A stretch of 24,067 nucleotides of DNA, taken from IMG/VR virus record IMGVR_UViG_3300017748_000134, positions 1 through 24,067 of that record. The stretch is one strand, 5' to 3'. The notes under the pieces are model-generated. The model searched no databases and was not told where the DNA came from. It saw only the letters and a program-made list of their open reading frames with translations. The stretch is from a virus. Position 1 is the stretch's first letter, and each line of letters starts with the position of its first letter. A program made the position numbers and the translations under genes. Positions 1-19,256 of the stretch are shown here, piece by piece.

Positions 1-1
1 G

Positions 2-508: not shown

Positions 509-513
509 GGTGA
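507..513 (+). promoter_or_regulatory. Shine-Dalgarno sequence of the giant gene
   Basis: GAGGTGA overlaps the stop codon of the preceding gene and ends 4 nt before the ATG at 518. It is fully complementary to the conserved archaeal 16S 3' tail (AUCACCUCC). The same heptamer precedes three other genes in this window. Confidence 0.75.
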
Positions 514-517
514 AACA

Positions 518-3500
518 ATGCCAATCATGCTTCAGTCCAATCACGCCCTCTTCTTTGATGGCGTGAGTGATGGAGTCATCATTCCTCAAGGTGCCTTCAG
601 TGGACTGGGTCGGGACAGTGCTGACGGGGACCGTAGCGCTTCCGACATCATCAGTGAGTCTTCTCAAGGTGCGCGTGTGGGGAGCATCATTTCCGATGCT
701 ATCGGTGGAGAACTTGCGATTGAGGCATGGGTTACGCCCGATTGCGGTGGCGTGGTGCTGACAAAGAGTGGGCAGTTTCATCTAAGCATCGGTAACGTCG
801 ATACACCCGGACCTGCTGTGTTCGAGGTCAACGTCATCACCGACACGGGTGTGCGTAAAATCATCTTGAGGACGGCTACTCCGGTGAGCACAGGCTTTGA
901 CGGGACAGTCTATCCTTCAACTACGTTCGGTGGTTTTGAGGACTCTTACAATCGCTTCGACGGCGCCAAAGACGATGCTACCAACCTGAATCTCAACCAG
1001 CGTCCACTCATTCACATCGTCGCCGCAGTCAGTCAGGGTTACGCTTCTCTCTACATTAACGGAGAACTGATGGTCGAGGAGGCTCTACCCAGCGACTTCG
1101 TCTTGCCTGAATCAGATGACCACGTCTACATCGGAGGTAGGGGCGGTGAGTTTCGTGGTGTTGTTGAGAGCGTGCACATCACCGGCGTTCTCACAGATGA
1201 GATGAAAACCCGCAGCGCTCCTTTGGTTGGCAACAGCACGCTGGCCTTGTTTCGCTTTGAGGAGCCAGTGGCCCCGATTGAGGGCACCTATGACATTTCA
1301 TCTATCGCTGATTCGAGTGGGCTGTCTACCATTACCGTCAGTGCAAATGATGCGAAAACGTTGGCTACGGAGTTGACTGGCAATTCAGTGACATCTGGAA
1401 CTGTCGATTTCACGAAGTCGCCTTACTCGTCCGGGGACTACTCAGTGGTCGACTACCTCACATCACCGGGCACACGTCGCGCTCACGCCGTCCCGCACGT
1501 TCCATACAACCTTCTCATCAACCCCGGTGCCATCAATCGAGCGACGCAGAAACCCAATCAGTCTCCGCCTGAGCGTGTTCGGCTACACAACATCAACACT
1601 GACACCGGTGCTCTTCTTGTTAGCAGTATTCACCTTGATTTCGCAAACAGCACACACGACAGTAGGGACGATGCTTCCCTGCATGATGGTCTACGAGGTG
1701 TGTTGCACAGTCGTAGTGCGGTTACAGGTGACGATTACTTTGTAGTCATCGCTGCAGACCTGCTCCTCGATAACGGCACGGCGCGTCCCTATCAACCGCC
1801 ACATCTTGCATCTCAACTGATTGACCGCACTGGTCAAATGGTGCTTGATGAGAGTGACTTTGAGCAACACGCACTCGTGTTCTCAAGTCGCATGGCTACG
1901 ACGACCAGTGACAGCAACAACCCCTTCGCTGTCGCTTGGCCCAACACCCTCGATGAGTCATTTCAGATTGGGCACTCAGGACGTCACATCTTCAACCATG
2001 TCTCAGGTCACCAATACCTTCGCAACATGCCGCGAGCCAACGAGGAAATCCTCGACCAACAGGTAGGTAACGCTGACATTTTGGAACTCGTCTTTGACGA
2101 AAGTGCAAAGGGCATTGACCGGCAGTTCCCCATCAACAGTGAAGTCGATTACTACCGCGACATCGCTCAATCGCGCATCGTCGACGTAACATCAAGCAGC
2201 GTCGCTTACGAAGCAGTGGACAACGGTCTTACTGCTGCCAACAGGAAACTGATTGCGATTGGTGGCGCAGGGACCAACGTTGAGTTTGACCCGTTCCCAT
2301 TCATGCTCAAGGGCCCTGTCCCCCAGCAGGTCAGTGATGTAGATGCCAACATGCGCAATCACCACCTTCGACCTTCGGCAACCAGCCGTATCGCAATTCT
2401 TGAAGTGGACCTTTCGTCGTATGGCCTCGCCTCTTTCGTCGAGATTCACTACAACGCCATCGACTTCACTGGGGTAAGTATGAGCAAAACTGCACCGATG
2501 CTGATGGTTGAGAAGACCGTTCCAGCATCGAATCATCTGCTGACTGGGAGCACCTATGTCATTGATGCCATTGAGGCCTCACTCAGTAGCGGTAAAACGT
2601 TGCACGCGCCGGGTGGCATTATCGAAGTGACAGACGCCTTTGAGGGAAACTACGCTCAAGCGGTCTTCACTCATTCTCTCATTGGGGACAACAGCGAGGG
2701 GTTCGAGAGTGATGACGAACTCGATGAGCGCTACACGCCTCAGAATTATGCGACAGTGCGTAGTGAACCGCGACGACCGCCGCAAAACATCACAGCCTCT
2801 CATACCACGAAAAGCGGACACGATTCCGTCTTCCACCGCGTTATCATCGAGGCTGCACCACCGGGAGCATACGCAAGCCCGCGTAGGAGTCCCGCTACCG
2901 ACCTAACCTCACCGAGCAACGGTCAGTTTGACACAGGCATCGCTGCCTCCTCGGGCCCAGTGCACGAAGTCTTTGACATCGTTGACAACCACGCTATCCT
3001 ACAGCCGACATCTGCTCAGCGTATCTTTGTTCAGCCTTCCGACCGCTCTCGCAGCGCTCAGTTGAGGCATGTCAAGACGGAGGCGAGTGACGGCAAGGAT
3101 AGCCACTACGTGACCGTGATGTATCTGATGACCCGCGCTCTACTTCGTAGTATCACCGAGGAGGAAAGTGACGGCGGCTCTCGTTTCACCAAGGTTCACT
3201 GCGTAGGTATCAACTCCGCTGCTATTACTCGAGACATTGACGAAATCGGCTCAGGCAGCCCTGACTCTCACGTTGTGAAGGAGATTGACCCCAACGCACC
3301 AGTCGTCTCAGTTACTCTGGGTGGCATCGGTCAAGGCGCCTACGACACAAACCCGTCGTTTGACCCCAGCACGCTTTCGAGGTTGCCCTACAATACTCGA
3401 CGCGGCTTCTCTTGTTTTGCTACAGCCGTTCGTGTTGACCGTGACACAACAGCGGCTGACCGTATTCAGTTCATTGAGGTGCGCGCGCTCAACAACAACA

Positions 3501-6500
3501 CTGATGACTTGAAGACGTGGGGCACCTACCCCTTCCCAAAGAAAGGTAGGTTGTTCCTCAAGACAGGCGCAAGCGCTGAATACACCAGCAAGACAGGTGT
3601 CGCGTTCATCTTTACGGATTCAAGCGTCGGCACAGGTCGCTTTGTGTTGCCTGATGGTTCTGAGGTCGGCAATTTCTACGAATGGGTAGACGCCACTGGC
3701 CTCGCAGCGCAGGCTGGGGCAGTCGCGAGCGGCAACGCTGACACATTTTCCCTTGGTGAAATCATTCTCGGTGACGGTGATTTCTACATGGAAAACGCAG
3801 CATCGGATGGCACCACTGTGAACGACCGTATGTTCCAATCCATGGACACTGTCACTCATGATTACCAACTTGGCACGCAATTCGCCAGCACTCGCGCTCT
3901 TGTAGAAATCCCACTCTTCAATGCGCAGTTCTTTGAGAGCGTCACTGAGAGCATTTTCCCCGGTCCTGACAACTCGCTGAAATTGCACCTTGACCCTACT
4001 ATGACGGCTCACACTTGGAATCCGTCACCAGTTGGCCGCCGTTACCCCGAAACAATGCCTGCTGACCGCAGTGCTCATGCAGCCTATGCATACGCACTGT
4101 CTCAAAATGAACATACCCGTAGTGCTGCTATTCAGCATAAAGCGGAACTTGTGAGTGGGAAATATCGCTTGTATGTCAGTAACCCTACAATTTTCCCCGC
4201 TGCTGACATCAACTTCGGTGGTGGGAGCGAGCCTGATTACCACTACGTTGAAAGAGTTCAGCGCTATCAACGGGCCTTTCTCCCAACGGGAGATTGGGTC
4301 ATCTATCAGAATGACCCCAATACTGACGGTTACATTGAGTTTGAAGACGAGAGTTGGGCGTTTTCAGATGGTTTCATTCGGGCTCATGAGACTGGGATGT
4401 TGCTCTTGGTCGGCGCGGGCTACAGTTCAGAAGCATTGGTGCCCTTAGAGGGTAGCCCCCTGATGCCCTCTTCGGCCATTGAGAGGCGAGGTGAATATTA
4501 CCATGACGCAGCGAACGTGAAAACACAGGGTGGTAACGTCGATTACGGATTGCGGCAATACGTCAGCGCTGTTGAGTTCAAGGCAGGGCCGACCACAAAC
4601 CCTCACGCCCCTCGCATCAAAACAGGACGTGCGCGGGGCAGTGTTCTCGGCGTTACACCCATCATGAACTCCTCAACCTTCACCGGTCTTGTGGTCATCT
4701 CTCTGTCTGAAGAAGATGCTGCGTTGTTCCCTAACGTTGAGACGAACGTAGACGGCGTCGGCAACATCGTCTACGAAAGTGGCGACTACCACTTTCAGGT
4801 CAGCACATCTTCACCTGATGGGACAACGAGGCGCTTCATCTACAGGGGCGATGCTGCTGCAACCTTCAGCGCCCTAAGTGGCTCTCCGACAAGTCCTGAC
4901 CAATTTCGCAACTCCATTCTTGCCGAGGATATCTTCAACAAGGGAGGGGCCTTGCCAAATTACCTTGACCGCACTCAGTCCGAGTTCATCATTGACCAAG
5001 AAGTTCTACTTGAACGCCGTGGCTTTGACCTCGGGTTCGACGTTTTACCGGATAGCCCATCACTCGAGAGCACGTTGAACATTGTGAATAGTTACCGTCC
5101 ACCTACGGCACGTCACCCTTGGACCATCAAGTCGTCACCAACACCAAACAGTAGTGCCATCACAGTCACCAACGCTACGCATAATGGTCTACTGCAAGCC
5201 AGTGTCACCGGATTAAACGTGCAAAATGCTGACTCACTCTACTGTGAAGTCACAACTACGAGCACCGGGGTAATTCGACATGTTCTCTATCTCGGGAACG
5301 TAACTGGTATTGCAGAAGGTCAAGCGCAATCAACACCGTCAACTGACACCGTCATCAACCTCGATGCGAGTATGTCAGCATCCGCCTTGTCACAGATGCA
5401 AACGGCTGCTGGCGATGCTACAGCGACGCTGTTTCTACGAGTTGGGATTAACAGCATCATGAAGAACGATGATGAGGCTATCCTCAATCGTTCGTGGTTG
5501 TTCCCCTATGCCCCCGGAGGGCTACGTCACGGGGACACGGTGTGGGCCAACATGACCTACAACAACCCTCACGCCGTCGAAGGGTTGTTTGCCAAAAGTC
5601 GAGGAGTCTACAACGAGGCGTTAGTATGGAGTGGTTTCAACGGCGGGTTGGGTGCACTCGCAACTGAGGCTCGTGACAGTATTCCGCTTGAGAACTTCTT
5701 AATTGGAGATACTTGCCGGGAGACTGCTGAGAACTACGTTCAACACATCAACAAAACAGTCGAGTTGAACTATCGTGAACTTGGCCTCACCAGTGGTTTC
5801 CCCGTAGTCGCTTATCTTGACCCTATGTTGAGCGACGACGGCCACTCCCGTGTTTTGCTCTATGACGTGGCGCACGACCGTGAGTTCATCGCTTTCCAAG
5901 ACTTGCACATGCAAGTTCAGTCAAGTCCAAAAGTCGCTGAAATCGGCTTCCAACGCCATACGTCGGCCAACAACGTCACGAACTCGACAAGTCAAATTGA
6001 CCTTGCTGAGTATTCTGCTAAATACAACGGCGGCTCTCAACACGGCTACACCACTCAGATTGATACACTCGCGGGCTACCCGAGTCAGAACAAATACCTA
6101 CGCAACAGGGTTCGTTCACGATTCATGGAGAGCGCCTACGCCCATGACCTCGCCAACCACTTCGCTGCGAGCATTATGAAGCAACCTGTTACCGGTAAGG
6201 TCACCTCCTTAGTGCAATTTTACGGGACAGGTGGTAATGGGTCGGGCTACAGTGGTGCTACTGGTGCAGCCACTACAACCCCCGGTAACGGTAGTGGGTT
6301 GACAGTCAACACCACGGTCAGCGGCGGAGGCATCACTGCAGCAGTCATCAATGCTGCTGGCACAGGTTACGCTCACAATGACATCATCACGGTCAGCGGA
6401 GGAACAGGTGGGCGTTTCCGCGTGCGCATCTCGCCCAGTTCAGTGTCAAGTCACTTAACGTCAATCGAGCGAATTAACCAGTTCGGAAAGGCACATGGTC

Positions 6501-9500
6501 ACATCGTTCACACGGGCTATTACACTGGTGCTGCCTTTGATGAGCGAGCGATTGGAGACAGCATCCTACCCCGGACTAAAGATGCGGTTGCTATCCCCTA
6601 TTGGGCTGATTCTCTTCACACCTTCACTCGAAAAATTCGCTCCAGTCTCGACCGATTTATTGTGGCTTTAACGCTCCATCGGGAAGAAAGTGTGCGCACT
6701 ACAGTGCGCGACCCTTCAACGCTGTTCGACACGCCTGATGGGACTCGTGTTGTTCCGGCATTCCTTGCCCTACGAGGCATTCGTTCAGGTGCCCTTGATT
6801 TGAGCAGCCACAGCGAGCAGCGTCTACAGCATCTGAAGCACTGGACAAGCATGGATTTCACTCGCAGGCTGACCATTGATTGTGGTGAAATAGCCACGCG
6901 AGATGGCGTTACTGACATCGAGGCCGCCGCGCGTGAAGTTGTTCGAATCATCAATCAAGCGGGCGCAGATAACGCTCGCGCAAACACCACCGGCGGTGAA
7001 ACTGGCTCGGCGTTCGACCCAGCAGTATGGTGGGACTCAGACAAAGCATTCGCCTCTAAGGACCAAGGTAGCCACATGGGTTACTTCCGAGCCCATCTTG
7101 GGCGTGTTGTGCAGGACATCAAGGGACGGGAAGGATTCTCAGTCGTCATTCATAGCACTGTGCCGGGCGCAACTGGTCGTAACTTCGCAGTGTGGCTTGA
7201 CAACGCAAGAGGGCAATCTCCCTATCAGCCTGAGTTCCTCATCGGTCATGGCGGACGTTTCAGAACTTTCTGGTGTCAGCCTGACGAGATGAGCGGGGAA
7301 GCCATGCACCCTGCGCCAATGCCACTCAACAAGCACGGTCGTCCGTTTGCGCCAGTTACGACGTTGCGCGGTTACACGCTACCTGACTTCTCGTCATCTG
7401 ATGTTAAGCCAACAACAGATTTTGCCCGTCGTGGTGACGAAGACTCTGACCCAGTTATGCGAGCCATTTCTATGGTCAGTGGTTCAGGCCAGTCGATGAA
7501 TACAGTCAACACCGAGTCACTCGAGGCTGAAGGTTACGTCAACACCTATACTGAAGGGCTTAGAGTTGGCTCTTCTGCAGTAGGTCGAGTCAACTTTGGC
7601 GGTATCGTTGCTGCAGGAATCCCCGGATTCGCCCCTGATGCGGGTTCATGGGGGTTCGGTCGTAAGGGAGACAAGCGTTTCAACAAGCACTATGGCGACG
7701 TGCACAACATTTCTGGTGACACCGTTGCATCAACCTACACTTCACATGTGCCCGCCAGTCAAATTTCACATGATGCCATTGGCAACAGCCCTCTCTATGC
7801 TTTCCAATTTGTAGACCACCTTGGTAACCGACACGCCATTCGTATCGTCTATCGCGGTATTGACCAAGACTTTACTCTCGATGAGACTCAGTTACCCGAT
7901 ACACTTGAAGACGAAATTGTCGTCTACATCGACGACCGCGACGTTGGGCAGGGCGGCTTCACCATCGGTCGTCACATGCACGGTCTTGGTGACGCTACTG
8001 GTCGTTTTGGCGCCAACCCAACCAACGCCACTTTGGCATCTTGGAGAGGTAATCGTTGGAACGCTGTGCCGGGAGTCAACGCAGCCTATGACTGTAAGGC
8101 AACGTATGATGATGCAAACAAAACACTCACACTTGTCTTAGAGGCACCATACGACTCTTGCCCGCACTTTGACGTTCTTGGTTACATGGGCTTCCCAATG
8201 GAAAACGGTGTCATTCAGGTGTCTGACCCATTTAACGACTCAAGCGCAGTTGGTAACTGGGGACACATGTTCTCCTACGGCAGCCGCACGCGCAACGACA
8301 ACTCAGGTGCACATGTTTTCTATGGCGTTGAGGGCGAGCGTTTTGGCTCATGTCAAGCCTACAACAACTCGGCTTCAGTGACATTGGCAACCAAGGGTTT
8401 CGGCGATAGTTCGGTCGACATCCGGGCGCTTGTTTCATCCTGCGCCAATTGGACTACCTTGGTCACTGATGAACTCCTCGCGGCAATTATCACGGCCACC
8501 GTCAACCTCGATAACCCAAATGTCGAAGAGGGTGTGCCTTTCGATTGTCGCGACCTCTTCGCAAGTGACGGGCGAACGTTTGGGGAATGGGGTGTGGCTG
8601 ACGATGCTATTCGTATTCGAGCCTACAATACCAATCGAGGGGTTCGGCCAATTTCAGACTTCTTCAGCGCCACACTGCACCGCGATATGGCAATTCAAGC
8701 AGCCCACGTAGAGCACGGGGACATTCAATTTGTCAAGACAACAGCGAGCGGCGTCATTCTTCCTACGACTAATCGTTCAGCACCAGATGCCTCGATTGAT
8801 GCTGGGTTGAGGGCAGAAGTAGGCTACATTCCCTTCACGGTATTGCAGGTTACAACCAAGGGAAGAGGTGCCAATGCGAACACGGCATCCCCTGTCCTCG
8901 TTGATTCCAGCAACGATGTGGTTGATACCGAAGTGTGGAGTCAAGGGCTCAACGGTCATCGTTTCACAGCCTATTCAGGTGACCGCATTTTACCAATGGT
9001 GAACAACCCAACGTTGGTCATTGACACAATTACTGGGAACAACATCGCTGTGAAGGGGACGAATGACCCATGGCACTTTGTTCGACCAGCCGGTAACAAG
9101 ACTGCAAACTCAATCACTGACGGTAGCAGCGCAATTGACCATGTGGCTGCTTTCGGTAGTCAGTCGCTTTTGTTTTACGGTGAAGACTTCGCTCTTGTGG
9201 AGAGTGAAGCAGGTAACCCGTTGACGCAACTTGACGCGGTCGCCGACACCGCAAGTAAGGACTGGGCCAATAAGACGACTGGCGTTCACATCGTTCAGCG
9301 TTTCGGAGACAGTCGGGCCGCAAGCACAGCAGGCGTTCGAGGTCTTGGTAGTCTCCATTCGCGACCGCAAGTCTTCTTCCGAGGTGGGCGAGATAGCACA
9401 GACCACTGGGTGCCGTTGTTCTTTGGTGGTGGTTTCAGTGGCGTCACACTCGACATTAACGATGGTAGCGTCAACGATTACAGTGAGAAATACACACACC

Positions 9501-12500
9501 CGTATGCAAATGGTCCCACAGGTGTCGCGGGTATTCAACATGCTAACGAAACGCTTTCATCGTTTTCTATGGTTGACTGCAACGCCATTATGGCCTTTTT
9601 CCCCGGCACGGCTCTCTTGAATCAGCATCGTGGTAGCCTCAATCCACCGTTTTTCAACCAAGACAGCATTCTCAGCCCTGACCTCAAAAGAGGGACTCAA
9701 GCAGTCAACGTAAATCACCCAAATGCAGCACCCTACTCAGCGGGCGTGCACATTCAAGTGCCTGTTCCATTGGTGCTTCGCTTCGCTCATCCGACTGCGC
9801 GTTACCACGACCACCGTGACAGCACTGAGAACAAAACTACGTTCCTCATTTTTGGCCCCGGTCAGGCCTTCCCATTCACACAGGAAGTAGCAACACCGGT
9901 CAACACCTTCGAACCAGCACCCGGTCGAGCCATTACGGTTGGTAACACTTGGTCTAAGGTCCCGAGTCACACTGGTAGCAACACGGCTTTCATGCCTAAC
10001 CACATCATCAATGACGCCGGTCATTACATGCCTTGGACCAGCGCGTATCAGACCGACCGGGGTCGCTTCCATTGGCGACAGACTGTCAATTGGGAACCTC
10101 CTCAAGGTAAGCCCAACGTTGCTATCTTGGCTCAGCGTCCTGAGTCCGGGCGCATGTATGGTGAAGTCTTCACTTCAGGCGTGTCGAACCTCACCACTTC
10201 TAACGTCCACGACTATCGCATGGCTCACCCCAGCCGACATGCCGTCTACATGGGCTTCTCTATGGTCAGTAGTTCAGACTGGTGTTACCACATGGATGGT
10301 GGTTATCACCCCGGTGGTTCATGGCTTGACAATCAAATTACCTTCAACCCACCTCATCCTGATGATGATAGCCGTGTGACGAAAAGCAGCATCAGTGGTA
10401 ACGAGTTGCACCCAAGCGCTTTCCGAGTCGCAGGCCCCCTTGCCAAGAAAGTGCTCTACGGGTCATCCGGCTCGTTTGCTGCTGAAACATTGGACAAAGA
10501 CGACGTTGACATGGAATACATCGCCGTTGATGCAACACGCTGTCAAAACAGTGAAGAGATGGCTGCGTTGCTCGGCGCTGCCATCAACGCTTATCCGGGT
10601 GGTGGCGCCCTCAAAGCGATGGGTGGGACCTTCCTCCCAAGTATGGGTAACGCCATGCGTCAGGACCGCTACGGGTGGCGTGAAGTTGAGGGTTCTGACG
10701 TCGTGCAATACTCCAAAGCGACTGCCTTGAGCACGAACCTAAACGCTGCCTTCATCACATTGGATATGGGCTCGAGTAGCGACCACGCCTACAATATCCC
10801 TGAGACGGGGTGGCTGCGCACGACCAGCATCTATGCTACTGGTGTGGGCTCTGAAAACTCACCTGCTTTCGCACCCTACTATGCTCGTATTGTGATGCAA
10901 TCAGGTAGCGACTTCCACGTCAAATTCTTCCTTGGGCAAAACCGTATCACCGGATTCACCGCTTTCGAGAGCGTCGCTACGTGGGACAACCATCTCGACT
11001 CCGCTACCTTGACGTTCCCCACCATCGCCAACACTGACTCGGGACTCAAGATTTACGTGTGGACCAAGGGCGGCGTTCATCGTTTCCGCAACTCAGCACG
11101 CAGCGGCGGCTATGATGCTGTTCACTTTAGCGGTCTTGTGGACGCCATTGACCGCACCAAACCTGTCGGTGTTGCAGGTTGGCACGGTGAACGTTACTCC
11201 TATCTGAACACGCTGCAACCTGAATCCAGCAAGTATGCTGCTGGTCTCGGAGCATGGCATTCCTGTCTTGGTTTCTCACCATACGGCGGTAGCATGGGTT
11301 GCGCGAGCACGCTCGGGCATCTGCCCAATATTACTCCGATGCCAAACAGCCCTGAGTCAGGTGAGCCGAATGAGGGTGATGATGGGATTGGCGCTTACCC
11401 TACGCCAACCAATCCTGACGCTCCACAAGATGCATACAGCATGACAGATAGTTCTCCAACCTACACCGTTGGCTTTTCGGATAGCAGCGACTTCAACACA
11501 CCACCCGTGATGGAAAACGAAAATGAGTTGCAGAAGGAGTTGACACACACGCAAGGTGTCTTCTCTCGCGGTTTGCTGGTTGTTGCCCATGAATCTGAAC
11601 TTGCACTCATCGCCAAGACAGACCGCGACGGACAGAAGTGCATTGGGGATTGGTTGCGTCTTGCTGACGCCTCAGACCTAACCAAGGCTGGCACCACTCG
11701 TTGGGATGACCGTATTCACGGTCAAGACCGTTTCTACGCTCCAGCAAATGCTGGACCGAACGTTGAGGCACTGATTCACAACGCTACGACGCGTCCGAGC
11801 ATTTCCGATTACACCGCCTCAAACGCCCTCGACGCTGCTCCGTTCAATGCAGCCTTCTTTTTCAATACGGCAATCACCGCTGACCTCGAACTGGACAACG
11901 CTGAACCGTGCCTCATGAAAACCGGCGACCTCTTTTTCGACCTTGACAAGAGCATCGGCTCCCACTTTTCAGCCAGCGCCGGGGCGCAGCGAAACGTCGC
12001 TGCCGATTTCTATTCTTCCGCGTCAACTCAACCCTCCACGCTCTTCGGTGGTAACAAGCAGAAGAACTCGTTTTGGGTTGGTGACGTCAACGCATATGAC
12101 ATGTATGTGCGCTCGCCTGCTGAGAACTTCAACGTTGAGCATGTTGTGTGGAAGCGTATGGATGGAGGTAGCCTCTCTATGCCAGCAGTCAACGCACGAG
12201 GCCTCGGTGCTGTCCCATGGGTCAACCGCGTAAGTGGTGGTGTTGGTTACACGACTGGTGAGAAGTTGCTCGGAAACGTCCGTTTTTCCTTTGAGACAAC
12301 CAACAGCGCCATGCTCCCTATCATACAGGCTCAGGAACTCAGTCACCCTCAATTGGCTGAGAAGCACCCCATGCTACTGAAGAACGCACTTGAAATTCCC
12401 AACGAACACCTACAGTTCGAGGACATGAGCGTTGTTGATGATACAGGGCAATCGCATACGCTTAGCGGCGGTTCACCGTTAGGTGTGGTGATTCGGGCAT

Positions 12501-15500
12501 TCAGCGCGGCAGGTGAACGCCTTGCCAGTGGATTGGCACCGTCAGTTGCCAACACCTCGACGTCCCCCAACCTCTTGGTGCAACTACCTGACCCTGAGTC
12601 CATCCCCGGTAATATCATCGTTCGTAGTGGGTTTGACCGCTTACAGGCTTACCAAAACGAGACTATGGGTGATGGTGGTATGCTACACCCAGACCTCGGT
12701 GCAAGTCACATTGGGCATCTGTTTGACAATGCAGTCAAGGGACCTCGCTTTGGTCCGACAATGAACGAGGTCGGTTGGGAACATATGGCGGATGGTGCAG
12801 CGTTCCCCGATAGCAGCAAAGATGGCTGGGTTGAGGCAACCGGTAATCGAACCCTGCAGTCCTCCTACGAACAACACGACCGCACTTTGTTCTTCCACGT
12901 CACGAAGATGGGGCACAGCCACAGCGAGCGCTTCAACGCAGTGTATTCACACAGCAATGGCGTGGAGTCGCAGTCATTGACCATCAGTTCCTACAGCAGC
13001 GGCACACTGACCGTATCTGCAACTGTCAACACTCGATTGTTTGACGCTGATTTCGGAACAAAGGAAGTCAGCGACAACCGACGTTTCTTACGCCTATCAA
13101 GTGGTAGCGATTCGTGCGTTGTCTCCTACACCGGTATCAGCGGTGTCACATTCACTGGTGTCGTTGGTGACATCGACTTCACTCAGTTCATCGCTGACCA
13201 CCCCAACGCTTCTGTTGCACCTTCCTATTACATTCCTGCCGGTAGCACTCGCTTCTTTGCAGCACGTCGTCTACGCGACCATGCTGAGGTCAGCGGTAAC
13301 AGTCCTGACATGGCTCACACCGAGTATGCTTCAGGTAATCAAAACACGCTTATCATTGACCGTTACAACAAGCCGCAACTGACGCCAATGCCGATGCCTC
13401 GCATGGGTCATCATTTTGTCAACGCAACAATGCCAATGCTACCCGGACACTGGGCACATCCCGCCTATCAGGGGCTTTATGGCAAACATGAGTCTGAGCG
13501 TCGCGCCGCACTGCAAGACCCTGACTTGATTCGTTTGCTGGATGCTACCACTCCGACTATGACAACGTTGGGTGCTGAACTTACCGACTACTTCCACCCC
13601 CTCAATCCGCAACTGCGTATTGGTAGTCTCACAGCCACACCAAGTGGGCCGAGTGACATCCATGGCGGTGCGTTCACGTTGATGTTTGAGAGCAAGGTGC
13701 GATTTGACGGCTATGGCGTCCTTGCGTCCAAGGGCACAGCCGGGGGCATGAACAAGTTGGGAGGTCACTCGATTGTGTTGGAGGCTGGTGGAAACTACAC
13801 GCAAGACGGTCACTTCCCTGACCCTGCCGAGGTTGGTGCTTACCAAATCGTCATCCAGCCCAATCTACGAAAGCAACAAATTGCAGGTTTTCATCACAAC
13901 AACAGTAACGCTGCGGCGCTACCTGACGGGTCTGCTCGCGAATTGACTGGTCAACAGGTGAACCTCGTCATCGGTATCAAATACGACTCGGAGCGCGGTG
14001 GTTCTGCGATTGGAGGGGCGACTCTCATCCTTGCTGAAGCGACACTGGCCGATGTGCGTGGTTGTGAAATCTTTGTCAATGAACTCATCCTCGACCATAA
14101 CCCTGACCACGGGAGTCAGTTCACCAACATCCCACCGATGTTGCTCTATAACGCACTGGGCGTGCAAGGTAGCGAGTCACCGGCATTTACTCGCCGTAGT
14201 CAAGCATACCATACGAGTATGTTCGTAGACGCAACACCGGGGTTCACGCTCAACATTCCTTGGTGGAGCATTGTTCACAAGGTTGGTCCCGATGACAGCA
14301 CAGCCACTGGGTTCCGTCACCTGTCCATCTACCGTCTTGACAATTACTACGAGTTCTGCCGAGCGTCACACGGTGCAGTCGGGGCTCAATTGACGTTGGC
14401 GGGCTATCCGTCCATCAGTCCCGACTTCTACTCCAAGGTGCTGGCCAATGCGTCCCTCACACCAACTGCTACTGTGCAAAGCAAGGGTAGCGGTTACATC
14501 CAAGTCGACGACGCATCACTGTTCCCTGAGGTCCCCTACTACGGTCAGCAACTCATCTACACTGCTGCTGATGGCAACACAGTGACTCAGGCTTACACCA
14601 AGCGCACGGGCACGACGCACGCCAGCGCTACAATGAATCAACCCTACCGCTTCATCATTAGCGGCACATCAAGTGTGCCCGACGGCGCCGTGCTGCGGCT
14701 CACTCAACCTTACAGTCGTGAGGTCACGACCGCTCTTGTCACCAGCACGAAGGGAGTTATGCCTCGCAACATTGACCAATTGCGGGGCGGCACTCGGGAC
14801 ACAAACAGTCTCTACATGCCCGACGCCTTTGTGTGTGCATGGAGCCCAAATCTTGGTCGCCCTCACACATTCTATTCCGATGGTAGCCGGACATGGGGCA
14901 CTCCCACAAGTGACCGTGCTGTCAACAAGGCCGCCTACAATAGCATGCCTGAACACTATGAGACAATCCACTACCATGGTGTCAACTATGCAGCAAGCCT
15001 CGGTCCACTCAACCTTGATTTCAAGACACCTAAGCCGCCCAATCAGTTTTCAGGCACCTTCAGTTCAGTGACCGGCTCACCATCAGTCATCACGATGTCG
15101 GCTACCATTACAGGAGATGGTGCATCGGCAGGGGATTTCATCTATGCCGACGGTAAAGTTCTCGGAAAGATTGCCACTGGGGGGTTGAGCGGGGCTACCA
15201 TTACGCTGACGGGTAGCATCCTCTTCACTCCAGCCGCTGGTGAGAAGGTCTACTTTGGGGCCGACGGGACTGCCGAAACTGCTGCCAACATTCACGCCAT
15301 GAGCGGTTACGAAGCACAGGGTAGTGGAACTGTCATGCTTAGCCACTACTGGCCATGTGGCAGCCGTGGTGGGCCGCTTGTTAGCCGCCTCGACGGCTAT
15401 GCTGCTTGGTCTGCGGGATGGCATGTGCCGCGCTCCTACGCCGCAGCAGGTGGTAGCCATTGGGAAGACACCGACGACGACGGCAGTTACGCCGTGAGCG

Positions 15501-17491
15501 GGGGTATCGGTATCAAAACCAGTCTTGTCGCCAGTCGCACCTATCCCTTCGGCTATCGTTTCGGTCTACGTCAACCGTGGAACCGTCCGCAGTGGGGTCA
15601 CTACGGTATGCGTGCCTTCCAAGAAGCGGCTACTTTTGGTAGCGCCAGCAACTACACTGTCGGCTACAAGGCGGGGCCGCTGGTCGAATACGAGTCCGAG
15701 ACTTGGAACTACGCTGGTGGCGCTGGCCTGTCGTCTCCTGTGCTACCTATCACTTATGTCGGCGTTATGGAGCGTCAAACCAACTTCAGCGGTATGCTTG
15801 GACCCGATAAGGCTGAGTGGCAAGTTCGCTACAGTGATGGTCGCCGCATGACTCGCTCTTACGGTTGCCCAGTTCGCATTATCCGCAACGCTTCTACCGC
15901 GCCACGAGACTGGTGGGGCGACAGCCAAGGACTCGGAGTTAGCACCATTGAGGGTGCAGCGGGTTACTATCTCGTTGACTGGTGGGGTAACACCCGAGGT
16001 GAAGATGTTCGCAAAGCACCCGTGCGCAGTTTCGGTATTCGGCCAGCGTGGGATGCGGGTGACGCTTACGAATATGACCGCACCAACAACCGCACACCAT
16101 ACGCCCGTCTCTACAACAACGGCAAACCCATCGTCAATCTGAAGGGTGTGGCTGACAGCAGCGGTGACGTTCTGTCGTCACCGACCGCTGTGCCTCGTTT
16201 CGGTGGGCGAGTCAACAACACCAACAACAAGAGCACGACAACGCTGGTTGACGTCTTTGCGCCCACGAATGCGTTGCGCGTGGGCGACATGGGTGGTGGG
16301 CGTGGGGTCCGTTACCCGACGCAATTTAACGAAGACTTGCTCGTCGAACTCAGCGCAGTCTACGAGGCTTCGGGCGTGGTTTTGTCACATCATACTTCGG
16401 AGCCCACGTTCAGCCAAGGTTACCTACGCCCACGCGATGATGTGCTGCAGTCTGACGAAGTCAAGCGAGGCATCAGCGCACGCCTTGACGTCGATGAAGA
16501 CGGTTTGCTCAAGCCTGATGCAGCAGTCAGTGACCGAGTTGAGAGCGTTAGCGGGACTTCAGTGCACAAGGAACCCATCTCCCGGTCTTCGCCCCGTATT
16601 GGTATTGACGGTGACACGCTCGAATCCTTTTCGACTGGAGTCAACGCTGACATGGTTGCCATCAACAGTGAGGCACACAGCCTACACACTGACCGTGGTG
16701 TTGGGCAGCGAGTTGTGCTTCAAGGTGGTCTGCAATCGGGGTCTCAGACGCTTGGTGACTATGACCTCACAGCACTGTCCTTCGCTGGTGAACCACAGGG
16801 GGCTGTCATGCGGCTCAGTCATACTGGCAACATCAAACCCATGGGTGGCACTTACATTCTCGAGTCTCGCTCGTTCGTCAATCCATTCGATGACACGGGG
16901 TGGGGTCGTAGTGGCTCAGGCACGACGAGCAACCCATATCAAACAACCACCAGTGTCAGTGCTCCGCACAATCTCAACGATGCAACGTTGCGCTTCATGC
17001 TGCGACCAGTCCGCTTGCTCGACAATCAGCACATCGAGGTGTTCCGAAGCCCACGCCGAGTCGGTGGCTCGACACCGCAGGAAGGCGGCACGGCCTACGG
17101 CGCAACGGCGGGTGGCAAATACGGTCTGTTCACATATGAGACGCCAAGCGCACTGGCCAGCAACTACTCGCGCGTTAAGGTGCCCAACACAGACGCTCCT
17201 TACCAACCCGTTTATGTCATGGAAAGCAGTAGCGATACTGTGCCTGTGTCAAAGGGTCCAAAATTGCCCGGTGCGGCTATGGCCACATTTGACAAGACTA
17301 CGCTGAAGAGCACAGTCACTCGCTTGCTCATCAGCGAGAACACGCTGCAACACTACCGTAGCGATGCACCTCGTCGCACTGGTAGCGGTAAGGACTACTC
17401 GGTCAAGCCTCGCTTTAGCCAATCGCTACACAGCAAGGGACACAAGGCCGATGTGACCTACAACACATCCGACCACAGTGGTGATGCCTGA
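518..17491 (+). CDS. Giant 5,657-residue virion structural protein, probably tail or host-contact, with LamG-like N-terminus
   Basis: This is a single uninterrupted frame of about 17 kb, starting at ATG 518 behind a strong GAGGTGA site and ending in TGA that overlaps the next gene by one base. Residues about 10-235 look like a concanavalin-A/LamG-like jelly roll: IEAWVTP near 68, the LYINGELMVE strand near 178, HVYIGGR near 202, then a VVESVHI strand and LTDEMKTRS. Residues about 1900-1973 are a Gly/Thr-rich module (GSGYSGATG ... GTGYAHNDIITVSGG) of a kind common in marine phage structural proteins. Residues about 4378-4590 may be a second LamG-like domain. Residues about 4642-4728 (SKGSGYIQVDDASLFPEV ... 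YTKRTGTTH) and 4847-4929 look like further small beta modules. I see no signal peptide, transmembrane helix or coiled coil. The remainder is Ser/Thr/Asn/Gly-rich beta-type sequence without recognisable enzymatic motifs. Position before hub-like and fibre-like genes supports a tail-tip, central-fibre or virion-surface role. Structural function is likely, but the exact part is unknown. Confidence 0.85.
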   Translation: MPIMLQSNHALFFDGVSDGVIIPQGAFSGLGRDSADGDRSASDIISESSQGARVGSIISDAIGGELAIEAWVTPDCGGVVLTKSGQFHLSIGNVDTPGPAVFEVNVITDTGVRKIILRTATPVSTGFDGTVYPSTTFGGFEDSYNRFDGAKDDATNLNLNQRPLIHIVAAVSQGYASLYINGELMVEEALPSDFVLPESDDHVYIGGRGGEFRGVVESVHITGVLTDEMKTRSAPLVGNSTLALFRFEEPVAPIEGTYDISSIADSSGLSTITVSANDAKTLATELTGNSVTSGTVDFTKSPYSSGDYSVVDYLTSPGTRRAHAVPHVPYNLLINPGAINRATQKPNQSPPERVRLHNINTDTGALLVSSIHLDFANSTHDSRDDASLHDGLRGVLHSRSAVTGDDYFVVIAADLLLDNGTARPYQPPHLASQLIDRTGQMVLDESDFEQHALVFSSRMATTTSDSNNPFAVAWPNTLDESFQIGHSGRHIFNHVSGHQYLRNMPRANEEILDQQVGNADILELVFDESAKGIDRQFPINSEVDYYRDIAQSRIVDVTSSSVAYEAVDNGLTAANRKLIAIGGAGTNVEFDPFPFMLKGPVPQQVSDVDANMRNHHLRPSATSRIAILEVDLSSYGLASFVEIHYNAIDFTGVSMSKTAPMLMVEKTVPASNHLLTGSTYVIDAIEASLSSGKTLHAPGGIIEVTDAFEGNYAQAVFTHSLIGDNSEGFESDDELDERYTPQNYATVRSEPRRPPQNITASHTTKSGHDSVFHRVIIEAAPPGAYASPRRSPATDLTSPSNGQFDTGIAASSGPVHEVFDIVDNHAILQPTSAQRIFVQPSDRSRSAQLRHVKTEASDGKDSHYVTVMYLMTRALLRSITEEESDGGSRFTKVHCVGINSAAITRDIDEIGSGSPDSHVVKEIDPNAPVVSVTLGGIGQGAYDTNPSFDPSTLSRLPYNTRRGFSCFATAVRVDRDTTAADRIQFIEVRALNNNTDDLKTWGTYPFPKKGRLFLKTGASAEYTSKTGVAFIFTDSSVGTGRFVLPDGSEVGNFYEWVDATGLAAQAGAVASGNADTFSLGEIILGDGDFYMENAASDGTTVNDRMFQSMDTVTHDYQLGTQFASTRALVEIPLFNAQFFESVTESIFPGPDNSLKLHLDPTMTAHTWNPSPVGRRYPETMPADRSAHAAYAYALSQNEHTRSAAIQHKAELVSGKYRLYVSNPTIFPAADINFGGGSEPDYHYVERVQRYQRAFLPTGDWVIYQNDPNTDGYIEFEDESWAFSDGFIRAHETGMLLLVGAGYSSEALVPLEGSPLMPSSAIERRGEYYHDAANVKTQGGNVDYGLRQYVSAVEFKAGPTTNPHAPRIKTGRARGSVLGVTPIMNSSTFTGLVVISLSEEDAALFPNVETNVDGVGNIVYESGDYHFQVSTSSPDGTTRRFIYRGDAAATFSALSGSPTSPDQFRNSILAEDIFNKGGALPNYLDRTQSEFIIDQEVLLERRGFDLGFDVLPDSPSLESTLNIVNSYRPPTARHPWTIKSSPTPNSSAITVTNATHNGLLQASVTGLNVQNADSLYCEVTTTSTGVIRHVLYLGNVTGIAEGQAQSTPSTDTVINLDASMSASALSQMQTAAGDATATLFLRVGINSIMKNDDEAILNRSWLFPYAPGGLRHGDTVWANMTYNNPHAVEGLFAKSRGVYNEALVWSGFNGGLGALATEARDSIPLENFLIGDTCRETAENYVQHINKTVELNYRELGLTSGFPVVAYLDPMLSDDGHSRVLLYDVAHDREFIAFQDLHMQVQSSPKVAEIGFQRHTSANNVTNSTSQIDLAEYSAKYNGGSQHGYTTQIDTLAGYPSQNKYLRNRVRSRFMESAYAHDLANHFAASIMKQPVTGKVTSLVQFYGTGGNGSGYSGATGAATTTPGNGSGLTVNTTVSGGGITAAVINAAGTGYAHNDIITVSGGTGGRFRVRISPSSVSSHLTSIERINQFGKAHGHIVHTGYYTGAAFDERAIGDSILPRTKDAVAIPYWADSLHTFTRKIRSSLDRFIVALTLHREESVRTTVRDPSTLFDTPDGTRVVPAFLALRGIRSGALDLSSHSEQRLQHLKHWTSMDFTRRLTIDCGEIATRDGVTDIEAAAREVVRIINQAGADNARANTTGGETGSAFDPAVWWDSDKAFASKDQGSHMGYFRAHLGRVVQDIKGREGFSVVIHSTVPGATGRNFAVWLDNARGQSPYQPEFLIGHGGRFRTFWCQPDEMSGEAMHPAPMPLNKHGRPFAPVTTLRGYTLPDFSSSDVKPTTDFARRGDEDSDPVMRAISMVSGSGQSMNTVNTESLEAEGYVNTYTEGLRVGSSAVGRVNFGGIVAAGIPGFAPDAGSWGFGRKGDKRFNKHYGDVHNISGDTVASTYTSHVPASQISHDAIGNSPLYAFQFVDHLGNRHAIRIVYRGIDQDFTLDETQLPDTLEDEIVVYIDDRDVGQGGFTIGRHMHGLGDATGRFGANPTNATLASWRGNRWNAVPGVNAAYDCKATYDDANKTLTLVLEAPYDSCPHFDVLGYMGFPMENGVIQVSDPFNDSSAVGNWGHMFSYGSRTRNDNSGAHVFYGVEGERFGSCQAYNNSASVTLATKGFGDSSVDIRALVSSCANWTTLVTDELLAAIITATVNLDNPNVEEGVPFDCRDLFASDGRTFGEWGVADDAIRIRAYNTNRGVRPISDFFSATLHRDMAIQAAHVEHGDIQFVKTTASGVILPTTNRSAPDASIDAGLRAEVGYIPFTVLQVTTKGRGANANTASPVLVDSSNDVVDTEVWSQGLNGHRFTAYSGDRILPMVNNPTLVIDTITGNNIAVKGTNDPWHFVRPAGNKTANSITDGSSAIDHVAAFGSQSLLFYGEDFALVESEAGNPLTQLDAVADTASKDWANKTTGVHIVQRFGDSRAASTAGVRGLGSLHSRPQVFFRGGRDSTDHWVPLFFGGGFSGVTLDINDGSVNDYSEKYTHPYANGPTGVAGIQHANETLSSFSMVDCNAIMAFFPGTALLNQHRGSLNPPFFNQDSILSPDLKRGTQAVNVNHPNAAPYSAGVHIQVPVPLVLRFAHPTARYHDHRDSTENKTTFLIFGPGQAFPFTQEVATPVNTFEPAPGRAITVGNTWSKVPSHTGSNTAFMPNHIINDAGHYMPWTSAYQTDRGRFHWRQTVNWEPPQGKPNVAILAQRPESGRMYGEVFTSGVSNLTTSNVHDYRMAHPSRHAVYMGFSMVSSSDWCYHMDGGYHPGGSWLDNQITFNPPHPDDDSRVTKSSISGNELHPSAFRVAGPLAKKVLYGSSGSFAAETLDKDDVDMEYIAVDATRCQNSEEMAALLGAAINAYPGGGALKAMGGTFLPSMGNAMRQDRYGWREVEGSDVVQYSKATALSTNLNAAFITLDMGSSSDHAYNIPETGWLRTTSIYATGVGSENSPAFAPYYARIVMQSGSDFHVKFFLGQNRITGFTAFESVATWDNHLDSATLTFPTIANTDSGLKIYVWTKGGVHRFRNSARSGGYDAVHFSGLVDAIDRTKPVGVAGWHGERYSYLNTLQPESSKYAAGLGAWHSCLGFSPYGGSMGCASTLGHLPNITPMPNSPESGEPNEGDDGIGAYPTPTNPDAPQDAYSMTDSSPTYTVGFSDSSDFNTPPVMENENELQKELTHTQGVFSRGLLVVAHESELALIAKTDRDGQKCIGDWLRLADASDLTKAGTTRWDDRIHGQDRFYAPANAGPNVEALIHNATTRPSISDYTASNALDAAPFNAAFFFNTAITADLELDNAEPCLMKTGDLFFDLDKSIGSHFSASAGAQRNVAADFYSSASTQPSTLFGGNKQKNSFWVGDVNAYDMYVRSPAENFNVEHVVWKRMDGGSLSMPAVNARGLGAVPWVNRVSGGVGYTTGEKLLGNVRFSFETTNSAMLPIIQAQELSHPQLAEKHPMLLKNALEIPNEHLQFEDMSVVDDTGQSHTLSGGSPLGVVIRAFSAAGERLASGLAPSVANTSTSPNLLVQLPDPESIPGNIIVRSGFDRLQAYQNETMGDGGMLHPDLGASHIGHLFDNAVKGPRFGPTMNEVGWEHMADGAAFPDSSKDGWVEATGNRTLQSSYEQHDRTLFFHVTKMGHSHSERFNAVYSHSNGVESQSLTISSYSSGTLTVSATVNTRLFDADFGTKEVSDNRRFLRLSSGSDSCVVSYTGISGVTFTGVVGDIDFTQFIADHPNASVAPSYYIPAGSTRFFAARRLRDHAEVSGNSPDMAHTEYASGNQNTLIIDRYNKPQLTPMPMPRMGHHFVNATMPMLPGHWAHPAYQGLYGKHESERRAALQDPDLIRLLDATTPTMTTLGAELTDYFHPLNPQLRIGSLTATPSGPSDIHGGAFTLMFESKVRFDGYGVLASKGTAGGMNKLGGHSIVLEAGGNYTQDGHFPDPAEVGAYQIVIQPNLRKQQIAGFHHNNSNAAALPDGSARELTGQQVNLVIGIKYDSERGGSAIGGATLILAEATLADVRGCEIFVNELILDHNPDHGSQFTNIPPMLLYNALGVQGSESPAFTRRSQAYHTSMFVDATPGFTLNIPWWSIVHKVGPDDSTATGFRHLSIYRLDNYYEFCRASHGAVGAQLTLAGYPSISPDFYSKVLANASLTPTATVQSKGSGYIQVDDASLFPEVPYYGQQLIYTAADGNTVTQAYTKRTGTTHASATMNQPYRFIISGTSSVPDGAVLRLTQPYSREVTTALVTSTKGVMPRNIDQLRGGTRDTNSLYMPDAFVCAWSPNLGRPHTFYSDGSRTWGTPTSDRAVNKAAYNSMPEHYETIHYHGVNYAASLGPLNLDFKTPKPPNQFSGTFSSVTGSPSVITMSATITGDGASAGDFIYADGKVLGKIATGGLSGATITLTGSILFTPAAGEKVYFGADGTAETAANIHAMSGYEAQGSGTVMLSHYWPCGSRGGPLVSRLDGYAAWSAGWHVPRSYAAAGGSHWEDTDDDGSYAVSGGIGIKTSLVASRTYPFGYRFGLRQPWNRPQWGHYGMRAFQEAATFGSASNYTVGYKAGPLVEYESETWNYAGGAGLSSPVLPITYVGVMERQTNFSGMLGPDKAEWQVRYSDGRRMTRSYGCPVRIIRNASTAPRDWWGDSQGLGVSTIEGAAGYYLVDWWGNTRGEDVRKAPVRSFGIRPAWDAGDAYEYDRTNNRTPYARLYNNGKPIVNLKGVADSSGDVLSSPTAVPRFGGRVNNTNNKSTTTLVDVFAPTNALRVGDMGGGRGVRYPTQFNEDLLVELSAVYEASGVVLSHHTSEPTFSQGYLRPRDDVLQSDEVKRGISARLDVDEDGLLKPDAAVSDRVESVSGTSVHKEPISRSSPRIGIDGDTLESFSTGVNADMVAINSEAHSLHTDRGVGQRVVLQGGLQSGSQTLGDYDLTALSFAGEPQGAVMRLSHTGNIKPMGGTYILESRSFVNPFDDTGWGRSGSGTTSNPYQTTTSVSAPHNLNDATLRFMLRPVRLLDNQHIEVFRSPRRVGGSTPQEGGTAYGATAGGKYGLFTYETPSALASNYSRVKVPNTDAPYQPVYVMESSSDTVPVSKGPKLPGAAMATFDKTTLKSTVTRLLISENTLQHYRSDAPRRTGSGKDYSVKPRFSQSLHSKGHKADVTYNTSDHSGDA
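545..1222 (+). other. LamG/concanavalin A-like domain encoded at the N-terminus of the giant protein
   Basis: This covers residues about 10-235. The order of elements is typical of Laminin_G_3-type domains: FDGVSDGVIIP, then ELAIEAWVTP, a strand-rich core, IHIVAAVSQGYASLYINGEL, VYIGGRGGEFRGVVESVHI, and a closing segment. Such domains often bind glycans, so surface recognition is plausible. The assignment rests on motif pattern alone. Confidence 0.6.
6217..6435 (+). other. Gly/Thr-rich GTGY-type structural module inside the giant gene
   Basis: Residues about 1900-1973 contain two related Gly-rich halves (GTGGNGSGYSGATG and GTGYAHNDIITVSGGTGG) around VNTTVSGGGITAAVI. From family knowledge, this GxGYxxxDxITVxGGxG pattern recurs in structural proteins of marine tailed viruses. 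It is probably a small beta-rich adhesion or spacer module. No catalytic function is suggested. Confidence 0.45.
13651..14290 (+). other. Possible second LamG-like domain in the C-terminal quarter of the giant protein
   Basis: Residues about 4378-4591 include HGGAFTLMFESKVRFDGYG followed by GVLASKG, QVNLVIGIKYDSERG, a strand with CEIFVNELILDHNPDHG, and a final ...FTLNIPWWSIVH. The succession of a 'mass' strand, a ligand-like loop and a closing strand resembles the N-terminal jelly roll. The sequence match is weak and could be a different beta-sandwich. Confidence 0.3.
17480..17484 (+). promoter_or_regulatory. Shine-Dalgarno sequence of the hub-like gene
   Basis: GGTGA lies inside the last codons of the giant gene and ends 6 nt before the ATG at 17491. 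It is a shorter version of the GAGGTGA site seen elsewhere in the window. Start and stop overlap as TGATG, so re-initiation by ribosomes leaving the giant gene is likely. Confidence 0.5.
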
Positions 17492-18912
17492 TGCCCTATC
17501 TTGCCAAGACGCGCATCATTGACGACGCAGATGTCGTGATGAAACACGTCCGCAAGCCTGTCTTTGTCGACAACGCCTTGCACCTTGGTGAGATTGCCAT
17601 GCAGGGCACAACTCAGGCTAAGGTGACGGTCAAGCAGCGCAAGACTTCGTCCTACCCAGTTGCGTCAACGCACACATACGCCATCGACGAGCGTGAAGAT
17701 AGCGTAGTTCTGACACATACCCCAACAGCAGGACACACGTCTGAGGGCTCAGTGTTCTACATGCAGACTGATTTCCAAAACAATGTTGCTTCAAATACTC
17801 TTAGGATGCTTTACGCTATAGACCAGCAGACTGAGCGCTTGTCATTGGGTAGTCACTCCATTGGAAACAAAGGTTCGGCTTTTGCCGTTCGAAACATGAA
17901 AGGTAGGACGTTGAGTGAACTTGGCTTCAACAGCACAGCAGGTTACTCCGCTCAACCGATTGACGTTGGTTTCCGCACGAGTGACATGGCGATGCGCCTT
18001 GGGCGCGACGTCGCTGACACGTTGACTTCCGTCAACATCGCCCTACCCCTCTCGCCGACCAATTCGGGCAGTGACCGTCGACGCCACTCGACGCGATTTG
18101 TCGCTACCGATTTCTACGGCGTCAACCTCGTTACTGCCTTGCGGTTCCTCGGTCGTCATGACAACCATATCGTCTACTTTTCCCGCTTCGGCAGTTTGCT
18201 GTATGTGCCATTCAACTTCGGTGAAGGTGGACGCTTCGTCAACGCTCATGAGCGTTCGGGGCCCGCTGGGACAAATCCAATTGACAACACCAGCAATCGA
18301 GTCATTGTGCAAGGTCGCCCACTCTCCGTCAACGACAGCGCTTACGCAGAAGTCAGTGACGCTGAACGTCAAAGCGGTCGTGGTGGCGACGTGCAGCAAG
18401 AGCCGCAGGTCATCGAAGACTTCACTGTGGGTAACAATGAATCTGCGCGGCGCGTCGCACGCAGTGTGCTCAAAGCAAACAACCTACTGAGTGGTAATAA
18501 GAGCAGTGCCGGTCACCCTACTGCGTGGGACTTGCGTCCGGGTAAGGTCATCCAATACGATGGGCGTAATCGTATCTTGACTGAGGTGCGTCACAACCTT
18601 TCGGAGAACACCGCTGACCTCGTCTTCTTGACAGTTGATAGTGGCATCGAGGGTGTGTTGCAGGGTATTCTGGAAGGCGCTCAAAACACAGGCTCAAGGC
18701 CTGAAGTGGTTGAGCAAATCATCGAGAAAAACTTCTCTCTCTTTGCCGATATCGAGATTGTCACTGTTCCCATCATCACACTGCAGGGGCATGGGAAATC
18801 AGGCTTCATCATCGGTAAAGCCATGAACAGGGGTGTGCTCGGAGGGACCAGTGACGAGGAAACAATCGGTGGTAGCAAGTCCACCCCAATCAGTTACCGA
18901 GGTGACAACTGA
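17491..18912 (+). CDS. Putative tail/baseplate hub-like protein
   Basis: 473 residues, with ATG 17491 overlapping the giant gene's stop by one base. The central-to-C-terminal part (about residues 270-390) follows the pattern of hub domains of the gp27/gpD/VgrG type: a strand NRVIVQGRPLSVND; a linker; then ESARRVARSVLKANNLLSG, a helix that in that family precedes the last beta barrel; then WDLRPGKVIQYDG and ILTEVRHNLSENTADLVFLT. The 'LRPG..v' and 'V.H....' spacing is characteristic of phage late control D proteins. The N-terminal 200 residues are beta-rich and fit the first hub barrel. The last 90 residues contain a helical segment (VVEQIIEKN) and a Gly-rich tail. The neighbours, a giant structural protein and a fibre, agree with a baseplate or tail-tip role. 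The assignment rests on pattern and context; a different tail-tip protein is possible. Confidence 0.6.
   Translation: MPYLAKTRIIDDADVVMKHVRKPVFVDNALHLGEIAMQGTTQAKVTVKQRKTSSYPVASTHTYAIDEREDSVVLTHTPTAGHTSEGSVFYMQTDFQNNVASNTLRMLYAIDQQTERLSLGSHSIGNKGSAFAVRNMKGRTLSELGFNSTAGYSAQPIDVGFRTSDMAMRLGRDVADTLTSVNIALPLSPTNSGSDRRRHSTRFVATDFYGVNLVTALRFLGRHDNHIVYFSRFGSLLYVPFNFGEGGRFVNAHERSGPAGTNPIDNTSNRVIVQGRPLSVNDSAYAEVSDAERQSGRGGDVQQEPQVIEDFTVGNNESARRVARSVLKANNLLSGNKSSAGHPTAWDLRPGKVIQYDGRNRILTEVRHNLSENTADLVFLTVDSGIEGVLQGILEGAQNTGSRPEVVEQIIEKNFSLFADIEIVTVPIITLQGHGKSGFIIGKAMNRGVLGGTSDEETIGGSKSTPISYRGDN
18899..18905 (+). promoter_or_regulatory. Shine-Dalgarno sequence of the 114-residue gene
   Basis: GAGGTGA lies within the last codons of the hub-like gene, 6 nt before the ATG at 18912. 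The stop and start overlap as TGATG. Confidence 0.7.
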
Positions 18913-19256
18913 TGCCAGTAAGCGACCACATCAAAAGAACTCTACTGGACACAATCGCAAGCAACATCAACGAGATGATTGTTGGCTTCGATGGCACCCC
19001 AAGCACCAGTTCTGATGGCGCTGCTGGACGTCCAGCAATCACCATCAACCCGACCGTGCGAATTGTCGATGACAACACCATTCTCGTTGAAGGTTTTATT
19101 CCAGCATCGCAAGCGTTTGATGACTCGTTGAAAGAAGTGTATGTGCAATTCCGTGGCACAGGCTCGTTCACTCCAGTTGCACGGCATACAATTCTCCCAG
19201 TGTTGAAAACAACGCAGAACGAACTACGAATTCAATTGTTAATTGAGGTGAAATGA
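18912..19256 (+). CDS. Small structural protein of 114 residues, possible fibre or baseplate adaptor
   Basis: ATG 18912 overlaps the hub-like gene's stop by one base and has a perfect GAGGTGA site 6 nt upstream. The protein begins with a helix (SDHIKRTLLDTIASNINEM). A linker with SSDGAAGRP follows, then beta strands: AITINPTVRIVDDNTILVEG, KEVYVQFRGTGSFTPVARH, and ELRIQLLIEVK. The strand pattern, with a 'L.EVYV.....FTPVARHTI.PV.KT...ELRI.L.IEV' ending, is reminiscent of small N-terminal domains of phage tail-fibre and collar proteins. The resemblance is too weak for a family name. Its place between the hub-like and fibre-like genes suggests that it connects the fibre to the baseplate. Confidence 0.8.
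   Translation: MPVSDHIKRTLLDTIASNINEMIVGFDGTPSTSSDGAAGRPAITINPTVRIVDDNTILVEGFIPASQAFDDSLKEVYVQFRGTGSFTPVARHTILPVLKTTQNELRIQLLIEVK
19245..19251 (+). promoter_or_regulatory. Shine-Dalgarno sequence that decides the fibre gene start
   Basis: GAGGTGA is followed by A and then ATGATG. It lies only 1 nt from the first ATG (19253) but 4 nt from the second (19256). The giant gene also uses a 4-nt spacing, and the other genes use 6-7. The second ATG is therefore the better start. Confidence 0.6.

Follow-up and report, generated by a model that had tools for sequence, protein, structure and literature searches.

The window analyzed here is a whole IMG/VR record of 24,067 bases, not a complete genome, and its first and last genes are cut by the ends. 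Most of it is occupied by a single plus-strand frame at positions 518–17491, which starts with ATG and runs for 5,657 codons with no internal stop. Mononucleotide shuffling of the window, repeated 200 times, produced stop-free runs of at most 297 codons. The product, which we call the giant, has a molecular weight of 609.9 kDa (about 610 kDa), a pI of 5.5 and 25 cysteines (0.4%). The upstream gene ends with TGA at 506–508 and the giant ATG follows 9 bases downstream, with a Shine-Dalgarno-like GAGGTGA (507–513, plus strand) 4 nt 5' of it. At the other end, the stop codon TGA (17489–17491) shares its final A with the ATG of the next gene at 17491 (TGATG). An earlier note, made from the sequence alone, had described a single unbroken 17-kb gene with a coupled start for its neighbor and had expected it to take a large share of a viral genome. 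All three points hold: the giant makes up ~16% of the ~107-kb genome of a relative and is the largest gene of these viruses.

The other genes of the window belong to a tail module and to a block on the opposite strand. Positions 2–508 (plus strand) encode the C-terminal part of a Dit-like or tail-initiator protein, cut by the contig end but full-length in relatives L089 and L102 and about 399–411 aa long in relatives. “Dit-like” is a positional name only, as the protein has no match among solved structures or library families. Downstream of the giant, on the same strand, lie a 473-aa homologue of the tail baseplate hub (17491–18912), a 114-aa protein (18912–19256) and an 859-aa tail fibre (19253–21832; phrog_21412, 3.4e-38). 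Within the fibre gene, a 111-bp tandem repeat (2.2 copies, 20832–21073) encodes TADQTDAEIRTAVEAATDSNVFTDADHTKLNGI. The minus strand carries a group II chaperonin, or thermosome (22184–23668; Pfam Cpn60_TCP1, 4e-114), whose best PDB matches are archaeal group II chaperonins/thermosomes, and a 5'-open frame at 23665–24066 that resembles the exonuclease subunit of a DNA polymerase (phrog_403, 1.2e-8).

The virus is a magrovirus

From gene content, we identify the virus as a magrovirus, one of the tailed viruses that infect Marine Group II archaea. The replication genes that bear on this assignment lie beyond the window and were tested in a near relative of 107 kb (G001/L002), which encodes PolB, an ERCC4 nuclease and a PD-(D/E)XK nuclease (Pfam 2.5e-38, 4.8e-17 and 9.7e-18, respectively). 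The same genome has an HK97-type major capsid protein with 34% identity to that of HVTV-1 (E 4e-50), an S78 protease (4e-9), a portal (phrog_18178, 2e-62) and a tape measure. Magroviruses are defined by genomes of ~90–110 kb in which structural and replication genes run in opposite directions (PMC12999244); the relatives’ genomes measure 105–107 kb, with the chaperonin and PolB opposite in direction to the tail genes. The gene content of the relative likewise fits the published description of the group (PMC10160649, PMC12999244). Gene content and genome layout would place the virus in the order Magrovirales, in an Apasviridae-like clade A.

Three contigs that bear the giant gene (L342, L343 and L344) are binned as Maricaulis and Cytophagaceae MAGs; since they carry this gene, they are probably misbinned magrovirus contigs.

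The giant frame is genuine and under purifying selection

The window is tiled without gaps by two contigs from other metagenome assemblies at >99.95% identity: L102 corresponds to positions 1–15099 with 4 mismatches and L001/L262 to 13709–24067 with 5 mismatches. IMG/VR scans with parts of the protein returned 298 (middle), 186 (N-terminal) and 361 (C-terminal) related contig stretches, and the protein is found conserved across hundreds of viral contigs. With the C-terminal 907 residues as the query, the protein was found in 19 of 21 near-complete relative records, where the intact gene is an open frame of about 5,500–6,100 codons. The first set of loci yielded 319 giant-frame ORFs, 39 of them complete (5,497–6,097 codons from stop to stop), and a more distant set added 32 complete frames of 5,173–5,734 codons. 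These counts take in repeated loci of the same contig. The total is about 70 complete copies of 5,173–6,097 codons, all of them a single colinear frame. The frame is interrupted in one contig of the first set (L157) and in two of the distant set (L364 and L394), by error or by a real break.

Alignment of 26 complete members is colinear even though pairwise identity falls to ~43%. When the window is compared with L089, the closest relative with a complete gene (79% aa identity), dS is 2.42 and dN is 0.152, giving an omega of 0.063, and omega stays between 0.035 and 0.12 in each 500-codon block where it could be computed. The giant is under purifying selection from end to end.

These observations bear directly on whether separate genes were joined by an assembly or sequencing error. 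We found nothing that speaks for such an error; the gap-free independent assemblies of the same virus, the ~70 complete relatives diverging to ~43% identity and an omega of 0.06 throughout rule it out for practical purposes. The earlier note’s reading of the frame as genuine rather than an artefact is thereby confirmed, and the same protein, which it had proposed to look for in other virus genomes, is widespread in them.

A separate question is whether the intact frame is translated as a polyprotein and cut after synthesis into several tail proteins, for example by the S78 prohead protease. The great length of the chain, the protease encoded by the virus and several stretches of low alignment occupancy that could be linkers (aa ~1450–1650, 1900–2000 and 4850–4900) are compatible with this idea. 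However, S78 proteases normally act in the head, none of the relatives found has separate small genes for the pieces, and an interrupted frame occurs in only three contigs. We therefore regard processing of this kind as improbable.

The giant lies between a Dit-like gene and the hub in a conserved tail module

In G001, the genes follow one another in transcription order as portal, 1,857-aa protein, protease, capsid, connectors, tail tube, chaperone-like genes, tape measure, Dit-like gene, giant, hub, 114-aa protein and fibre; the thermosome is encoded on the opposite strand. The 1,857-aa protein between portal and protease (L101:11450–17023, minus strand) contains a stretch resembling a DNA ligase adenylation domain; a Pfam search with this protein gave no match.

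The identity of the key neighbors comes from profile comparison with cultured haloviruses. The hub aligns with the halovirus baseplate hub by hhalign (probability 92%, E 6e-7), and comparison with HVTV-1-type counterparts identifies a 672-aa protein as tail tube (87%) and a 445-aa protein as tape measure (83%). All other halovirus proteins in that comparison stay below 10%. A PDB search with the hub profile returned nothing.

The Dit-like gene lies directly 5' of the giant in 119 of 119 contigs. When loci were instead found through the hub, the giant was adjacent in 76 of 78, the two exceptions having <900 bases of upstream sequence each, and it was adjacent in all 76 loci found through the Dit-like gene; the hub and Dit-like profiles were built from giant-bearing viruses, which makes this adjacency test not fully unbiased. 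In the set reached via the giant itself, the hub was recognized directly 3' in 49 of 75 loci, the remainder including a distant clade in which the hub is more diverged. In that clade, the Dit-like profile also matches longer ORFs of up to ~867 aa (L351–L412), possibly through an insertion domain common to other structural proteins. The thermosome lies 3' of the giant in 30 of the 56 contigs with enough sequence, a frequency that leaves unsupported the idea that it is obligatory for folding the giant.

We infer from this gene order, with the Dit-like gene, the hub and, further 5', the tape measure as neighbors, that the giant has a role in the tail. The earlier note had called it a structural protein, which this context supports well. 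That the giant is instead an infection product secreted or displayed at the cell surface, outside the virion, is very improbable, given that the gene lies within the tail operon, where its stop overlaps the start of the hub gene, and that the N terminus (MPIMLQSNHALFFDGVSDGV) shows no apparent hydrophobic signal.

The haloviruses of the Druskaviridae and Saparoviridae (HVTV-1, HVTV-2, HHTV-2 and HCTV-2) have homologous tail tube, tape measure and hub proteins in the same order. In these viruses, however, the tape measure gene is followed by a small protein (132-type) and then the hub, leaving no gene in the slot that the giant occupies, and none of their proteins matches any part of it. None of the giant's windows has a match among the halovirus tail proteins compared, and the giant is several times longer than these. 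HVTV-2 does have a LamG-domain tail protein, encoded by a separate gene. With nothing in this slot in the haloviruses, the giant appears to be a magrovirus-specific tail-tip protein, which we read as having been added to a halovirus-like tail module or lost in the haloviruses.

A LamG-like N terminus precedes largely unmatched sequence

The N-terminal ~245 residues (518–1252, plus strand) form a LamG/ConA-like jelly-roll according to Pfam, an AlphaFold2 model and Foldseek. In the window copy, Pfam Laminin_G_3 matches aa 155–222 (1.5e-5), below the curated cut-off (25.6 versus 27.6 bits); the match recurs in 11 of 16 relatives, at best 4.7e-7. AlphaFold2 modeling of aa 1–1197 with 56 relatives gave a beta-rich structure (pLDDT 72.6, pTM 0.69), with pLDDT ~80–90 over most of the jelly-roll. 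Foldseek matched this model to LamG-type jelly-rolls in the PDB and to phage ConA-like proteins in BFVD. The PDB matches to clostridial neurotoxin binding domains and PAPP-A reflect the jelly-roll fold only (TM 0.08–0.13 by query length, ~10% identity) and say nothing about toxicity. The best BFVD match, UniProt A0A1B1IU10, is 50% identical over the N-terminal model and belongs to the same family, and homologues of the giant are already deposited, without a name. The jelly-roll is shared with LamG/ConA-like phage lectin proteins, but the domain is ~4% of the giant and the rest has no match.

Only one other segment was recognized by the libraries, a facultative glycine-rich module at aa ~1837–1969 (6026–6424, plus strand; phrog_697, 2e-8). 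This module is short and common to unrelated phage proteins, and its aa ~1900–1990 part is absent from distant relatives (alignment occupancy 0.21–0.62). Several relatives also carry inserted modules at fixed sites, including beta modules of ~70 aa and, near aa 5468, an insertion that we assigned as LamG-like by eye.

Beyond these segments, Pfam searches of 16 relatives gave no match in the second half of the giant, PHROGs searches of the same 16 gave only isolated weak matches in single members, and a PDB profile search with both halves found nothing significant. In INPHARED, tblastn with the N terminus, the C terminus, the hub and the chaperonin returned no match. The earlier note’s picture of a beta-rich protein with few known modules in otherwise unrecognized sequence therefore stands as far as the libraries and the one usable model reach, and domain searches did not resolve the giant into ordinary proteins fused by error.

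Two further architectures were excluded. Giant bacterial adhesins of the RTX/LapA type are repetitive, huge and beta-rich, and the giant is like them in size and beta-rich composition but lacks tandem repeats: when 43 profile windows were compared all against all (861 comparisons), one short pair stood out (1395–1449 versus 4660–4700, 77% probability), all else being at most 20%. A fusion with a hub or Tal protein is also ruled out: the hub has a gene of its own, and none of the profile windows of the giant matches it (best 4%).

The C-terminal segment (aa ~5101–5657; 15818–17488, plus strand) is conserved, and in the pair L105/L106 it is linked to the hub gene in a common backbone. AlphaFold2 gave a poor model of aa 4470–5657 (pLDDT 48), which was not used, and for that reason the proposal that this end is anchored draws on conservation and gene linkage only.

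Two variable islands interrupt an otherwise conserved chain

Comparison of close virus pairs reveals two stretches that diverge between otherwise near-identical viruses, island 1 at aa ~1201–1700 (4118–5617, plus strand) and island 2 at aa ~2401–2950 (7718–9367, plus strand). In pairs from several lineages, most 100-aa bins of the islands show ~37–84% aa identity with pS of 0.4–0.8, compared to >95% aa identity and pS mostly 0.1–0.3 in the flanks. Both islands recur in the separate pairs L134/L142, L160/L165 and L161/L237; in L149/L304, island 2 is divergent and island 1 is not covered. That synonymous sites diverge more as well suggests allelic exchange, not just point mutation. On our reading of these alignments, the pattern would reflect exchange of receptor-facing surfaces on a conserved scaffold. 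In haloarchaeal hafunaviruses, the tail fibre adhesin that sets host range is encoded in a hypervariable region (PMC8651126).

The pattern is not uniform. In L105/L106, divergence spans aa 1000–5100 rather than the islands alone, while the N terminus, the C terminus, the hub and most upstream structural genes are ~92–98% identical. In L133/L149, the greatest difference is at aa 4800–5000.

In a pair of genomes that are ~96–98% identical (G003/G004; L328/L265, about 14001–18000), identity falls to 88–90% in the fibre region and to ~80% in the next 2 kb, which by gene order is the chaperonin region. This suggests a further exchanged block comprising the fibre and the 2 kb that follow.

Discussion

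Taken together, the gene order, the homology of hub, tube and tape measure, the colinear conservation, the islands, the LamG-like N terminus and the facultative insertions favor a model in which the giant is a tail-tip adsorption protein, its conserved ends held in place between the hub and the end of the tube and its variable middle facing the host. We consider this model probable. Presence in the virion, location at the tail tip, the division into anchoring and binding parts and receptor binding itself are all features that we infer.

In this model, the giant would assemble between the hub and the Dit-like protein, the latter lying where the tail tube ends, and would form a very large adsorption apparatus. 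The scaffold held in the tail tip would consist of ~1,000 residues at the N terminus and ~550 at the C terminus, and the jelly-roll and the two islands (aa ~1200–1700 and ~2400–2950) would face outward and contact the archaeal surface. The islands would change by allelic exchange, and the small beta modules at fixed insertion points would offer extra, optional surfaces. The giant would then resemble siphophage Dit, Tal and gpJ and the T4-like gp27 hub in its gene-order position and probable adsorption role. It would differ from Tal/gp27-type hubs in that the magrovirus hub is encoded separately downstream, and searches of the giant revealed neither a hub nor a Tal domain.

Several observations run against an adsorption role. 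The separate 859-aa fibre encoded 3' of the hub could be the actual receptor-binding protein, LamG folds have non-receptor roles too, and the N-terminal part of the giant has no match to a hub/Tal fold. The broad divergence in L105/L106 and the different site of variation in L133/L149 also fit poorly with two discrete receptor-facing islands. An alternative is that the giant serves chiefly as a structural shell or collar at the tail tip, or as a tail wrap, and that the fibre recognizes the host. The giant is conserved end to end, unlike typical fibres, a true fibre gene lies downstream, and its many invariant Gly, Pro, Trp, Arg and His residues suggest a fixed fold. On the other hand, recurrent islands and inserted lectin-like modules are better suited to a surface under host pressure, and we judge a purely structural giant to be rather unlikely.

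The magrovirus papers searched treat tail and structural genes in general terms and do not describe the giant, which may have been mentioned elsewhere. One survey counts Laminin_G_3 among the auxiliary metabolic genes of four magrovirus groups (PMC10160649); what it counted may be part of the giant tail protein.

The giant is probably a component of the tail tip; the gene order around it is known, but its size and sequence are unmatched by anything searched. Possible, though short of probable, is the broader proposal that magroviruses have evolved a tail-tip machine made of one non-repetitive polypeptide, ~0.6 MDa per copy, inserted where the tube of an otherwise halovirus-like tail meets the hub. 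This would be a new architecture for an adsorption device, combining scaffold, lectin domain and exchangeable receptor surfaces in one chain. In practical terms, one 17-kb frame diagnostic of the group is a convenient marker, and the two variable islands and the fixed scaffold pinpoint where to look. For the biology of the group, the finding means that viruses infecting abundant ocean archaea probably attach to cells by a huge apparatus of a kind missing from their cultured salt-lake relatives.
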